A DNA stretch of 64,000 bases from Gloeobacter morelensis MG652769 (GCF_021018745.1 NZ_CP063845.1:1488001-1552000), one strand, 5' to 3'. Shown: positions 19,136 to 23,751, counted from the first letter of the stretch. The notes: a model not told the origin generated them from the letters alone. Translations and numbers: made by a program.

Positions 19136-19795
19136 TTACTGACGGGTGTAGGGCACAAATTCGCGATAGCGGTTGAGCACGTACAGCGTCGGTTGCGGCA
19201 GGGGCAGTTGTGAATCCCAATAGAGTACCCAGCTTTTGCCCTCGGGATCGGGAGTGGTGCGGCTGCCGTCGGTGGTGAAGCGACCCACATCGCGTGCGGG
19301 GGCCTGGCCGCGCGCGTACTCGGCATTGTCGTAGGTGATGCGCTCGGGCAGGCCGCTGAAGACAAACAGGCTCTTGAGGACCGTCGGATTGGTGAGCACC
19401 GATTTGAGGCGACCCGCCCAGACCCGGGCGATGGGCAGCACCCGGGTGGTACCGTTGGGAGCGGTATCCCGGGGCGTCAATTCGATCAGCCCCCGGTCGT
19501 TGACCAGAATGATCGCCCCGCCGTCGTTGCCGCGCACCGCTACGGACAACTGCGGTTGAGGTGCTTCGCGCACAATGTTTGCAAAGCGCTGGGTCGCCTG
19601 CTCGACGCGGGCAGTGCTGTCGGGACCGCGCAAAGTGAGAATCGTATAACCGGCAATCTTCAGCGTCGCCGCCTCCGCCGGAGGCGGGGTCAAGACGGGA
19701 GCCGCTTCGGTGGACGCGGGCGCGACGGGCGTCTCAACCGGCGGCGGAGCCGGTGTTTGGGCCAACAGCGGCAGGCCCAACAACAGCCATAGCAT
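19136..19795 (-). CDS. Secreted protein resembling the N-terminal domain of cyanobacterial mechanosensitive channels
   Basis: This 219-residue protein starts at an ATG seven bases after AGGAG. A short signal peptide (MLWLLLGLPLLAQ) is followed by a Pro/Ala-rich linker to about residue 40. The domain after it begins AATLKIAGYTILTL, then STARVEQATQRFANIVREA and VNDRGLIELTPRDT. This arrangement resembles the periplasmic domain that precedes MscS-type channels in cyanobacteria, but no channel helices follow. No catalytic motif is evident. It may be a free-standing periplasmic sensor or binding domain; the resemblance is from memory and needs profile comparison. Confidence 0.5.
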   Translation of the reverse strand: MLWLLLGLPLLAQTPAPPPVETPVAPASTEAAPVLTPPPAEAATLKIAGYTILTLRGPDSTARVEQATQRFANIVREAPQPQLSVAVRGNDGGAIILVNDRGLIELTPRDTAPNGTTRVLPIARVWAGRLKSVLTNPTVLKSLFVFSGLPERITYDNAEYARGQAPARDVGRFTTDGSRTTPDPEGKSWVLYWDSQLPLPQPTLYVLNRYREFVPYTRQ

Positions 19796-19940
19796 CGGTC
19801 ATCTCCTTTCTGGCGAGAGCACTCGGCTCGGAAGTACCCGAATTAAGCACTTCTGTAGATGTTCGCATAGCTGCAGGCGCAATCGTCAACCACAAGACTT
19901 GGATGTGTTTGACTGCATGGATAACCCGGTTGCGCGCGGG

Positions 19941-20573
19941 TCAAAAGGGCATCGCGGTATGCAAAAACAGATTGAACTCGAAGCGTTGAGTATAGTCCGT
20001 TTCACCATACAGGTTGAACGTAACCACCGGCTGATCACCCAAAGATTCGATACTGTGAATCGCCTCTGGAGTAAATGCAATTATATCACCCGCCTCCACA
20101 ATTTTTTCTCCTGTCATTTCGACTTGGTCCGGATAATCGATCGTTGGAGAGCGACGCCAAAAGCAATTTTTCTCCCGGCCTTGCACCACAGCGACGATGC
20201 CCCAGGTAGCGTGATTGTGGACAGCAGAAGCCTGGCCGGGTAACCAGGCCACCATTTGAACAGTCAACGGAAAATCAAACTCATCATACAGACAATGCAC
20301 AGACCAGCCAGGATCCGCGGATGGTGCAGTGTACTGCAGCTGCAACCAGTAGGAACTGCACAGCAGCTTGCGCACCAACGGCATGAGCATCCGGACGCGC
20401 TCGACAGCATCGGAAGTGATCGACAGGATGTCTTCCACTTCGGTCAAAAACCGATACAAACGATAGGGCTGCACTGGCAGTTCGACGGTATCCAAGGGCA
20501 ATGCGTCGCATTGCCCCGCGGCTGTGACCAGCCAGTTTCGATTTTCTATCCATCCGTCAGTTGCTTCAGCCAT
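19941..20573 (-). CDS. Cupin-fold protein, cysteine-dioxygenase-like
   Basis: This 210-residue protein has a cupin metal-site block VHNHATWGIVAVVQGREKN, where two histidines and the glutamate are the expected iron ligands, and a second block IIAFTPEAIHSIESLG with the fourth histidine. The order and spacing resemble the cysteine dioxygenase type I-like group of thiol dioxygenases. It lies downstream of the anti-sigma gene on the same strand, so the three genes probably form one operon. The ATG at 20573 leaves a 37-base gap; an upstream start at 20624 would overlap the anti-sigma gene by 14 bases. A thiol or sulfur-compound substrate is an inference. Confidence 0.65.
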   Translation of the reverse strand: MAEATDGWIENRNWLVTAAGQCDALPLDTVELPVQPYRLYRFLTEVEDILSITSDAVERVRMLMPLVRKLLCSSYWLQLQYTAPSADPGWSVHCLYDEFDFPLTVQMVAWLPGQASAVHNHATWGIVAVVQGREKNCFWRRSPTIDYPDQVEMTGEKIVEAGDIIAFTPEAIHSIESLGDQPVVTFNLYGETDYTQRFEFNLFLHTAMPF

Positions 20574-20610
20574 GAACTTTCCGGTGCGACATCTAGAAGT
20601 GGCCGCCAGG

Positions 20611-21384
20611 CTAAATGCTTGCACTCTGCAGGATCACAGACCCCGTCGGACTCGGTGCCTGCGCAGAAGCTTCCAAAGTCACAATTAACCGAGATAGCCG
20701 CGGGTCATAAAAATCCTTGTACATTTCAGCCGAAAGGGGAACTTCATAGGACGCGTTTTCCCAGGAGTAGGGCCGGATCACTCCACAAGGAAACTTGCGA
20801 TCGGCGATGACAGCCCATAGCGTGTACATCTGCCCCGGAGGCGGAGCGGGCAGATTGCGTACCATGAGGAGCGCTTTGGCCTGCTGGGGATTGATGATCA
20901 TGGTGACAAAAGCGGTGCTGCCAGGTTTCGTTCCCTTGAAACTGAATAGACGGGTATCAGGATTCTGGAACATTCCTTTGACCACCTGCAATTGCCTGTT
21001 TTCCTGGTCGAGGCGGTTATGGGCAGCGACGAGAGTACCCAGATTTTGGCGCAGGCGGATGTTGTCTATACCCAAAGCGATTGCAGCCGCTGCAGCCACC
21101 GCACCGGCAACCTGCAGCCACCGCAGGCGTTGAACCCTTGCTACACTGGTTGGAGCCTTGATTTGTTCTAAAATATTCGTGAGGATCCGCGGCGGGGCAT
21201 CCGTTTCGGTAAATCCCTCCACCACTTGTCCAACAGTTGCCTGTAGACCCTCGACTTCCTTTGTCCACTCAGGATGAGTCTGCAGGAGCGCCTGGAATTC
21301 CGCAGCTTCCCTCGCATCGAGATTTCCGACAACGAATCCCGCTGCCAACAGTTGAAAACGCTCTAGTTCCGATGGGTCATTCAT
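20611..21384 (-). CDS. RskA-type anti-sigma factor
   Basis: This 257-residue protein is a membrane anti-sigma factor. The N-terminal cytoplasmic part (residues 1-80) has the helical anti-sigma pattern LAAGFVVGNLDAREAAEFQALL. A membrane segment follows near residues 90-106 (WLQVAGAVAAAAAIALG), then an extracytoplasmic RskA-like domain with LLMVRNLPAPPPGQMYTLWA and a C-terminal strand block. It binds the ECF sigma factor encoded just upstream, whose stop overlaps this start by 8 bases, and would release it on an envelope signal by regulated proteolysis. The extracytoplasmic domain is the probable signal sensor. Confidence 0.85.
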   Translation of the reverse strand: MNDPSELERFQLLAAGFVVGNLDAREAAEFQALLQTHPEWTKEVEGLQATVGQVVEGFTETDAPPRILTNILEQIKAPTSVARVQRLRWLQVAGAVAAAAAIALGIDNIRLRQNLGTLVAAHNRLDQENRQLQVVKGMFQNPDTRLFSFKGTKPGSTAFVTMIINPQQAKALLMVRNLPAPPPGQMYTLWAVIADRKFPCGVIRPYSWENASYEVPLSAEMYKDFYDPRLSRLIVTLEASAQAPSPTGSVILQSASI

Positions 21385-21979
21385 GAATCATTGAGTCCTG
21401 ATTCAACAATATTTGCCTGAGCTTCAATAGGCCTTGGCGGGTACAGGTTTTTACTGTACCCAGCGGCAGATTCAACCTCCGAGCAATTTCTGTCTGGCTG
21501 TATCCCTGATCGTAAGCCATTTCGATCACCTGGCATTGCTTTTGCGGCAGTTGTGTCAAAGCTGTGCGTATCTGTCGCCGTCGCTCGGTTGCAGCCGCCC
21601 GCTCAATGGGTGTAGGTGCGGAAAGCTGAGTTAGGCTATTCAATCCTGATTTTTCGACAAGTTTTAAGTGGCGGCTTCGAGATCGGAGTTTATCGATCGC
21701 ACGAGAACGAGTCATGGTGGTCAAATAAGCAATAAAATAGCGGCAACTGGTGTTTTTCGATGCATTGCGCCACAATTCCACAAAAATGTCCTGGGTTAAA
21801 TCCTCGGCTTCCTGCGGGTTTTTCAGGATGCTGCAGGCTTGTCCATAGACCAGGTGTCCGTAGCGTCGAAAGAGCAGTGCCAGAACGGCAGCTTCTCTGT
21901 TTTTCAAGCGCACGAACAATTCCTCGTCTGTTTTCGAAGCGAGATCATCTGTACTCTCGTCCTGTGGAGAGCGAGTCAT
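21377..21979 (-). CDS. ECF RNA polymerase sigma factor (SigK-like)
   Basis: This 200-residue protein is an extracytoplasmic-function sigma factor. Region 2 is visible as LLFRRYGHLVYGQACSILKN, AEDLTQDIFVELWRNA and YLTTMTRSRAIDKLRSRSR; region 4 as LPQKQCQVIEMAYDQGYSQT and IARRLNLPLGTVKTCTRQG. It directs transcription when freed from the anti-sigma factor. The ATG at 21979 precedes region 2 by a normal leader; upstream in-frame starts are unlikely. Its gene is divergent from the thioredoxin and CcdA genes across 229 bases, and these are plausible targets together with its own operon. Confidence 0.9.
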   Translation of the reverse strand: MTRSPQDESTDDLASKTDEELFVRLKNREAAVLALLFRRYGHLVYGQACSILKNPQEAEDLTQDIFVELWRNASKNTSCRYFIAYLTTMTRSRAIDKLRSRSRHLKLVEKSGLNSLTQLSAPTPIERAAATERRRQIRTALTQLPQKQCQVIEMAYDQGYSQTEIARRLNLPLGTVKTCTRQGLLKLRQILLNQDSMIHE

Positions 21980-22208
21980 GGTGATTCGATAGCTCCCTGG
22001 TCGGACGGTATGCAACCGTTGTTTGGCCGTCTTCCCAAAAACAGATCTCCTCCTTCATTGCCTGCCCACAATCAAAAGACGACCGCGCAGGTTTATTGGA
22101 TTTATCCTCGGCGAGCAAGTTCGAGAAAATGGAGCGCTGCCCGTTAAATCCGCTAGGCAAGCTTCTTTCGTCTTAGGAGTAGACACGACTATCCAAACGG
22201 AGATCCGC

Positions 22209-22763
22209 ATGTACTCGCGTTCCAAGCTGCTGATGTACCTGTGCGTGAGCAGTCTGCTCTTCAGCACCGCCGTCGCCGTCGAGACCGTGATTGTCGCCTC
22301 TGTGGCGGCCCCGGCCGCCCAGGCCAATCCCTGCGCAGCGAAAACCAACCCCTGTGCCGCCAAGAAAAATCCCTGCGCAGCGAAAACCAACCCCTGTGCG
22401 GCGAAAACCACTTCTGTAGGCGGTCCTCTTGCCAAAGAATTGCAGGGTGAGCCGCTTATTGTGGATGTGTACGCTAGTTGGTGCGCCGCCTGCAAGAACA
22501 TCGAACCGACGCTGAGTGAGCTGCGGCAGCAGTATGGCGACAAAGTCAACTTTGTCGTGCTCGATGTCAGTGACAAAGCGAAAGCAGCAGCCTCCGAGCA
22601 GAAGGCGAAGCAGTTGGGTCTGGGGAAGTTTTTGGAAGCCAATAAAGCCCAAACCGGTACTGTGGCAATTATCGACCCGGCCACGGGAAACATTTTGGCT
22701 CAGCACTACAACAACCCCGATCGCGCTGCATATACCGAGGTGATCACGAAGGCCCTCAAGTAG
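22209..22763 (+). CDS. Exported thioredoxin-like protein with tandem Cys repeats
   Basis: This 184-residue protein has a signal peptide (to about residue 39, cleavage after AQA), four tandem NPCAAK-type heptads at residues 40-67, and a thioredoxin fold with active site YASWCAACKNIEP. The heptads put one cysteine every seven residues, the kind of array used to bind soft metals or act as a thiol pool. The WCAAC active site and the adjacent ccdA-like gene suggest disulfide reduction in the periplasm. The ATG at 22209 directly precedes the signal. The repeat arose by a 42-bp duplication (22326-22409). It is divergent from the sigma/anti-sigma operon. Confidence 0.85.
   Translation: MYSRSKLLMYLCVSSLLFSTAVAVETVIVASVAAPAAQANPCAAKTNPCAAKKNPCAAKTNPCAAKTTSVGGPLAKELQGEPLIVDVYASWCAACKNIEPTLSELRQQYGDKVNFVVLDVSDKAKAAASEQKAKQLGLGKFLEANKAQTGTVAIIDPATGNILAQHYNNPDRAAYTEVITKALK
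22326..22409 (+). repeat. 42-bp tandem duplication encoding NPCAAK heptads
   Basis: Two 42-bp units (22326-22367 and 22368-22409) are identical for their first 32 bases. Each encodes two heptads, giving four Asn-Pro-Cys repeats. The near identity suggests a recent duplication within the gene and a possibility of copy-number variation between strains. Confidence 0.9.
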
Positions 22764-22896
22764 CAGGTTGATTTCGGTTTTTTTCTGTTAGAGCCGTGCC
22801 CTGGAACGGGTACGGCTTCGCAGGAGCTGATTTTGCTGTTTTTCCGGCAATCGCTCAAAGGGACCTTGCCACCGGCTTTTTTATGGAGCTATTCCG

Positions 22897-23742
22897 ATGC
22901 CTCATCTGCAAGAACCGCAGCAACGCCCACACAATCTTCCAAAGCCTAAATGGTCGCGATCTTGGTTGCTTTATGGAGGATTGGCCAGTGTGTTCGTCGC
23001 TGGTATTGTATTGGCGGGAGAACCCGCTTCCCGAAGTGTCGAGCACTGGATTTCCGTTGTGGAGAACAACTATCAACAATGGTTCAAACAGCAAGATACA
23101 ACCACTCCCATTGTTTTGCTGCCCCTCGCATTTTTAGGTGGCCTGCTTGCCAGCGTCTCGCCGTGCATCCTGGCGATGTTGCCGATTAATCTCAGCTATA
23201 TCGGCACACGCGATATCCAGTCTCGGTGGGACGCTTTTGTGAAGGCCGGTTTGTTCGTATTGGGTGTGGTGACGGTACTCAGTTTGTTCGGACTGGTTTC
23301 TTCTTTTGCTGCAGCAGTGATGGTGGACTATCGAGGCTACATCAATCTGGTCGTCGGTCTGGTCATTCTGGTCATGGGATTAGGATTGCTTGGGCTTGTC
23401 CGTATCCCCTTGCCGACTGTAAATATCGATGCCAACAACCTGGGGCCTTACGGAGTGGGCGTCACCTTCGGGCTGGTGAGTTCTCCGTGCGCCAGTCCGG
23501 TACTGCTGGGCGTACTTGCCGCCGCCGCCGCAACAGGTTCACAACTCGTCGCTACCCTGGCGATGATCAGCTATGCTCTGGGCTACACCGCTATCATTTT
23601 TGTGGCCAGCTTGCTCACCGGCATGGCCAAACAAGCCAGAGTTTTGCTCACCCATTCCGAGGCAATCGTCCGGGTGGGAAGCGTCGCTCTAATCCTGGCC
23701 GGCGTCTACTACGGTATTGTGGGCATACTCTGGTTTCTTTAA
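22897..23742 (+). CDS. ccdA: CcdA-type thiol-disulfide electron transporter
   Basis: This 281-residue membrane protein resembles CcdA, which passes reducing equivalents from cytoplasmic thioredoxin across the membrane to periplasmic thioredoxin-like proteins. Two conserved cysteines are visible in LASVSPCILAMLPINLSYIG and VSSPCASPVLLGVLAAAA, both in the expected helices, with glycine-rich hydrophobic helices between. An N-terminal extension with one extra membrane segment (about residues 24-41) and a 40-residue periplasmic loop precede the six-helix core. It lies 133 bases downstream of the thioredoxin gene, so the two are probably coregulated and the thioredoxin is its likely partner. Confidence 0.85.
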   Translation: MPHLQEPQQRPHNLPKPKWSRSWLLYGGLASVFVAGIVLAGEPASRSVEHWISVVENNYQQWFKQQDTTTPIVLLPLAFLGGLLASVSPCILAMLPINLSYIGTRDIQSRWDAFVKAGLFVLGVVTVLSLFGLVSSFAAAVMVDYRGYINLVVGLVILVMGLGLLGLVRIPLPTVNIDANNLGPYGVGVTFGLVSSPCASPVLLGVLAAAAATGSQLVATLAMISYALGYTAIIFVASLLTGMAKQARVLLTHSEAIVRVGSVALILAGVYYGIVGILWFL

Positions 23743-23751
23743 GCCCCAAAC

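Follow-up and report, generated by a model that had tools for sequence, protein, structure and literature searches.

The closest described parallel to the locus reported here comes from mycobacteria. In M. tuberculosis, SigK and its anti-sigma factor RskA control mpt83-dipZ-mpt70, and dipZ, whose product belongs to the CcdA family, has a SigK promoter (PMC9861118). DipZ has been described as CcdA and a TlpA-like part in one protein (PMC9861118, PMC3078919), and in C. pseudotuberculosis cskE, sigK and dipZ lie in one island (PMC3078919). Among cyanobacteria, the extracytoplasmic function (ECF) sigma factor SigG is cotranscribed with sapG, whose product binds it (PMC2758279), and a 2009 review regarded it as unclear what SigG, SigH and SigI of PCC 6803 do and which promoters they recognise. 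Promoters whose -10 box contains CGT, together with autoregulation, are standard for ECF sigma factors (PMC8103513). Here we analysed a 64,000-nucleotide stretch (hereafter the window, from whose first letter coordinates are counted) of the 5.1-Mb genome of the cyanobacterium Gloeobacter morelensis MG652769 (NZ_CP063845.1:1488001-1552000), in which an operon for an ECF sigma factor, an RskA-type anti-sigma factor and a cupin diverges from genes for an exported thioredoxin (Trx) and a CcdA-type membrane protein. We consider it likely that these five genes form a self-contained, transferable envelope thiol-stress module under its own sigma switch. The features of the locus are as follows.

19941..20573, minus strand: cupin, assigned to the thiol-dioxygenase family (profile search of PDB and AlphaFold2/Foldseek fold)
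20611..21384, minus strand: RskA-type membrane anti-sigma factor (PF10099, E 5.5e-19)
21377..21979, minus strand: ECF sigma factor (PRK12519, 242.7 bits, over cut-off)
22076..22103, minus strand: putative ECF-type promoter of the sigma operon, AAATCC-N16-CGTCTT (genome pattern search and conservation)
22146..22174, plus strand: putative ECF-type promoter of trx-ccdA, AAATCC-N17-CGTCTT, ~35 nt before the ATG (genome pattern search and conservation)
22209..22763, plus strand: exported thioredoxin, active site WCAAC (PF00085, E 1.9e-11, 44.3 bits vs cut-off 23.5)
22326..22409, plus strand: four NPCAAK(T/K) heptads of the exported thioredoxin (sequence)
22479..22493, plus strand: WCAAC redox-motif codons of the exported thioredoxin (sequence)
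22897..23742, plus strand: CcdA/DsbD_TM membrane electron carrier (PF02683, E 3.1e-10, 40.2 bits vs Pfam cut-off 27.1)
19809..23746, no strand: probable acquired island, approximate extent (low GC and homology breakpoints)

A preliminary description of this DNA had reported a sigma-anti-sigma pair with an 8-base overlap, a cupin with cysteine-dioxygenase-like metal motifs, an exported thioredoxin with four NPCAAK heptads, a CcdA-type transporter and 229 bases between the divergent halves, and its gene assignments hold. The sigma and rskA reading frames overlap by 8 bases, the divergent sigma and thioredoxin ATGs are separated by exactly 229 bases, Pfam recognises the thioredoxin and CcdA, and the cupin falls in the thiol-dioxygenase family by profile and fold (see below). 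The sigma protein consists of regions 2 and 4 only, and an anti-sigma with an RskA_C domain (95.5 bits against NF052375, just below its cut-off of 100) is encoded alongside, which fits an ECF/RskA-type pair. The same description knew of no described module with this gene set. A literature search for the combined module likewise found nothing relevant, but the regulatory logic parallels that of SigK-RskA-DipZ, and the module is therefore less isolated than had been claimed. Both systems combine an ECF sigma and an RskA-type anti-sigma with a regulon that includes a CcdA-type protein, and the best solved relative of the window sigma is SigK of M. tuberculosis itself (4nqw, E 1e-19). The window module differs in its separate Trx and CcdA genes, its NPC repeats, the thiol dioxygenase in the operon, the divergent paired promoters and the exchangeable regulator. 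The window sigma scores 112.8 with the SigK model, against a cut-off of 226. A SigK-type redox switch was rejected for it, since both cysteines (133/183 in SigK) are absent, the aligned residues being Ala and Ile under an inferred offset in chain numbering. With SigG-SapG the window pair shares a cyanobacterial ECF sigma and a cotranscribed partner gene; however, conservation of sigG-sapG was described across the set of strains compared, whereas the window pair is an accessory one that goes with trx-ccdA. The regulatory logic is thus already known, and the module is a variant of it.

Relatives of the locus were collected by scanning the genome contigs of 84,980 prokaryote species with an alignment of the exported thioredoxin. 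The 76 loci kept were all cyanobacterial by record title except one. This record is titled as a Candidatus Gracilibacteria bin, but its CcdA and the Hydrococcus CcdA are nearly identical. The family comprises 105 proteins in the 75 cyanobacterial loci, and CcdA adjoins the thioredoxin in 70/75 loci in which a Trx was called. The module is present in 18/244 genomes sampled evenly across the phylum and is therefore accessory. CcdA and DsbD proteins pass electrons to exported thioredoxins of the ResA, TlpA and ScsB kind. The window CcdA resembles these in its DsbD_TM domain, its neighbouring exported Trx and its two conserved cysteines (Cys90 and Cys198, both within SPC motifs and invariant in the alignment), and its only solved relative is 5vkv (CcdA). 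It is unlike them in belonging to a paralogue family of its own, restricted to cyanobacteria in the scan made, and in the Cys repeats of its thioredoxin. Many loci also encode a thioredoxin reductase and a cytoplasmic Trx downstream of ccdA, which would be the expected electron source for CcdA and the exported thioredoxin. As a separate observation, a relative of the exported thioredoxin lies on a Pseudanabaena galeata plasmid (NZ_CP112876.1:121913-122269), at three places in the record; plasmid carriage was set aside as an explanation because it was seen in this one Pseudanabaena plasmid alone.

The two halves of the locus appear to be joined by matching promoter sites. An unbiased paired-word search upstream of trx in the loci with a sigma gene (sigma-type) returned the motif AAATCC ... 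CGTC. With a spacer of N15-18 it precedes trx in 21/21 sigma-type loci and in 0/28 loci with a histidine kinase (kinase-type), against a shuffling expectation of 0.03-0.04; it is also found in 5/25 loci with neither regulator, and in four of these five the contig extends only a short way upstream. A corresponding site, usually (C/A)AATCC(A/G)A ... CGTCAT, lies upstream of the linked sigma genes (21/22 by a scripted pattern; in L110, which the script missed, GTAATCCGATCGCC...AGTCGTCATA was recognised by eye). The -35 box of the upstream site is AATCC, not the classical AAC, and its -10 box has the CGT typical of ECF promoters. When the window genome was searched for the exact pattern AAATCC-N15-18-CGTCTT, there were exactly two matches in 5.1 Mb, both inside the 229-bp gap, and 0 in the reversed control; a sigma-70-type promoter was looked for in the same gap and none was found. 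Comparison of the window with 21 other loci showed the boxes TTAAATCC and CGTC to be 100% identical, with 30% identity in the spacer and 11% in the flank. Because other cyanobacteria show the gene arrangement as well, and conservation covers the promoter boxes but not the spacer between them, the arrangement is, by this sequence comparison, beyond chance. The preliminary description had proposed that the sigma factor controls the thioredoxin and ccdA, and had suggested looking for co-occurrence of the two halves in other cyanobacteria and for a shared -35/-10 motif before both transcription units; both were found, and they support the proposed control strongly. A target and a promoter sequence are thus assigned, from sequence alone, to one subfamily of cyanobacterial ECF sigma factors.

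The regulator itself appears to be exchangeable. Upstream sequence of 4 kb or more was available for 55 loci, of which 20 have the sigma, 21 the histidine kinase, 14 neither and 0 both. The anti-sigma accompanies the sigma, a response regulator accompanies the kinase in most loci, and the cupin is found with either type. Upstream of trx, 22/28 kinase-type loci and 0 sigma-type loci carry CATCT-type direct repeats, spaced as is often the case in OmpR/PhoB sites. Since AAATCC/CGTC goes with the sigma and CATCT repeats go with the kinase, cis and trans parts change together. In a comparison of cyanobacterial ECF sigmas, the linked ones group in a single clade (SH-like approximate likelihood-ratio test 98, in a quick tree), but their CcdA partners do not; in the CcdA tree, which contains long branches, the sigma type is not one clade (approximately unbiased test, p-AU 6e-5) and requires a minimum of 7 state changes. 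These trees and sites indicate that two regulator classes have been exchanged in nature, and the matching DNA sites with them. In some kinase-type loci (e.g., L088, L098 and L113), a reversed AGATGAATTTTTGCTGAA element is oriented toward the cupin, and this element and the CATCT repeats are probable response-regulator sites.

We propose the following mechanism. In the unstressed cell, the membrane-bound RskA-type anti-sigma would hold the ECF sigma, and a change in the envelope would free it. The freed sigma would then activate its own operon (sigma, anti-sigma and cupin) and, via a second copy of the promoter in the opposite direction, the exported thioredoxin and CcdA. CcdA would take electrons from cytoplasmic thioredoxin and deliver them across the membrane to its exported counterpart, and the exported thioredoxin would re-reduce oxidised or metal(loid)-blocked envelope thiols. 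The soft metal or metalloid that causes the damage is probably bound by the NPCAAK repeats, and the cupin probably acts in the cytoplasm by oxidising a small thiol. Cultivable strains in which the main claims could be tested include Calothrix or Anabaena (sigma type) and Microcystis or Pseudanabaena (kinase type). An extension of this scheme can be formulated around Cys200, the sole Cys in the predicted extracytoplasmic domain of the anti-sigma, which is kept in 22/22 linked copies. In it, the sigma/anti-sigma and kinase/regulator pairs, two unrelated signalling systems swapped on a single envelope-repair module along with the DNA sites of each, would both read the same thiol-derived signal, set or cleared by the thiol dioxygenase, and the exported thioredoxin would reset this Cys and close a feedback loop; taken as a whole, we think this improbable. 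Cys200 was rejected as a module-specific sensor, the same CG motif being present in several unlinked cyanobacterial RskAs.

The cupin was assigned by profile and structure. Its Pfam matches to CDO_I and Cupin_2 are weak and below cut-off, and a profile search of PDB returned 3-mercaptopropionate dioxygenase (7e-19) and mercaptosuccinate dioxygenase (3.5e-16). The AlphaFold2 model has a predicted local distance difference test (pLDDT) score of 94, with 4tlf, 6xb9 and 8vni as its best Foldseek matches. The three metal histidines (H119, H121 and H173; 3-His, HNH...H) and Arg197 are invariant, and the Tyr is kept. In place of the catalytic Ser-His-Tyr triad of thiol dioxygenases, the cupin has S/T-N-Y, with Asn in every copy with a readable motif. 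It thus shares the fold, the three metal histidines and the conserved Tyr with the 3-mercaptopropionate and mercaptosuccinate dioxygenases, but at 20-24% identity and with Asn in place of the triad His. By family membership, as judged from profile and model, it is a thiol-dioxygenase-family protein. Viral carriage of the cupin was rejected, no relative having been confirmed in viral contigs.

At least two [NDS]PC repeats are present in 74/105 thioredoxins of the family, with a maximum of 11. A probable role for the NPCAAK(T/K) heptads is soft-metal binding or that of a flexible linker; a literature search for NPCAAK found no paper. An exported YHS-domain protein, unrelated to Trx and carrying many NPCAGK repeats, is encoded beside a response regulator and the cupin in one genome (G041; L072:7357-8211), and YHS proteins are found downstream of ccdA in several Microcoleus-type loci.

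The stress is best indicated by genes for arsenosugar synthesis next to the module in relatives, where both ArsM (NF038099, 579 bits) and ArsS (TIGR04167, 408 bits) score over cut-off. They stand beside the module in Nodularia, Anabaena UHCC 0204 and Trichormus (Nostocaceae and kin; L126, L141 and L148) and in Oscillatoria, Laspinema and Phormidium (L139, L143, L147 and L149), and most of these neighbourhoods also contain a VTT membrane protein and a MerA-like reductase. These 7 loci with arsS near the module, in two clades, compare with ~0.2/75 expected from a rough gene-density estimate (1.2 Mb read). In G044, cupin, histidine kinase, response regulator, VTT, PyrR, ArsM, VTT and ArsS are encoded in this order on one strand (L077:2437-10732), and in G007 trx lies beside arsS. 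In G043 (L197; G043:C97, 1-7919), a further cluster, arsM-arsS-VTT-VTT-MerA-like, diverges from an ECF sigma-rskA pair of a related, though distinct, kind (identities of 41% and 31%), and this sigma groups with the one downstream of trx-ccdA in Snowella (L124). Judging from these neighbourhoods, arsenic or another thiol-binding metal is most likely the stress. The preliminary description had spoken of a thiol- or metal-stress circuit; the parts fit that view (CcdA, Trx, thiol dioxygenase, Cys repeats and, in relatives, arsenosugar neighbours), and we infer the stress from them. The accessory thiol-stress module defined here may serve arsenic tolerance in cyanobacteria.

Several observations weigh against the reading of the locus as a sigma-switched envelope thiol-stress module. 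The agreement between cis and trans parts comes from only 2 independent locus pairs on well-supported branches, or 7 on all branches. The repeat is absent from 24/105 thioredoxins of the family, so it is not essential. Most module loci have no arsenic gene nearby. In the window, arsM and arsS do not lie inside the module, being neighbours in relatives only, and the genome's own arsS is ~64 kb away; the link to arsenic is therefore drawn from relatives only.

An arsenic-specific form of the proposal, in which the module would act under arsenite exposure and while arsenosugars are being made, by protecting the envelope or supplying reductant, with arsenite or an arsenical as the inducer, is possible and is put forward tentatively. 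It would account for the ArsM-ArsS genes adjoining the module in two clades and in G044 and G007, for the G043 cluster divergent from a related sigma-rskA pair and for the excess over chance of loci with arsS nearby, but the 7 loci fall in only those two clades, most loci stand apart from arsenic genes, and arsS is common anyway, being present in 45/59 cyanobacterial genomes compared with 18/244 for the module.

We regard it as doubtful that binding of soft metals (copper, mercury, cadmium) is the main job of the locus, with the NPC repeats as binders and Trx-CcdA only keeping their cysteines reduced. The thioredoxins lacking the repeat do not fit such a role, and the conserved gene set includes no metal transporter. 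Consistent with metal binding are the recurrence of NPCAxK repeats in the unrelated YHS-domain protein at a related locus, the CopZ-like and YHS neighbours, and the scores of the kinase and regulator in the CopS/CopR heavy-metal families, which are below cut-off.

The CcdA family and an exported Trx domain would also be expected if the housekeeping pair for cytochrome c maturation (CcdA and a TxlA/HCF164-like protein) were present in duplicate. The housekeeping role was rejected because a separate, widely conserved Trx-CcdA pair lies at G000:C1:1598168-1599302 (only ~32% identical), and with a patchy distribution and a regulator of its own, the module is very unlikely to be such a copy. That the two halves are merely chance neighbours, as the genes inserted between homologous halves in L092, L095 and L106 might suggest, is scarcely credible given their recurrence, mutually exclusive regulators and shared promoters.

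In the window, the proposed envelope thiol-stress module is probably an acquired island. The lowest-GC 3.9 kb of the window starts at 19801 (53.4% vs a window mean of 61.7%, standard deviation 2.35), and homology to G001 stops at 19808 and restarts at 23747. The other three genomes of the genus Gloeobacter lack the cupin as well as any close relative of the window Trx or CcdA, and in G003 murA lies directly beside the orthologue of the 19136-19795 gene with nothing in between. The module looks acquired because of this absence from three related genomes, the uninterrupted murA junction and the low GC content. The opposite history, a loss from the other Gloeobacter genomes instead of a gain here, would count against acquisition and is less likely. 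The gene at 19136-19795 encodes a 219-aa protein that has no Pfam match, is conserved in the genus and stands beside murA in G003.

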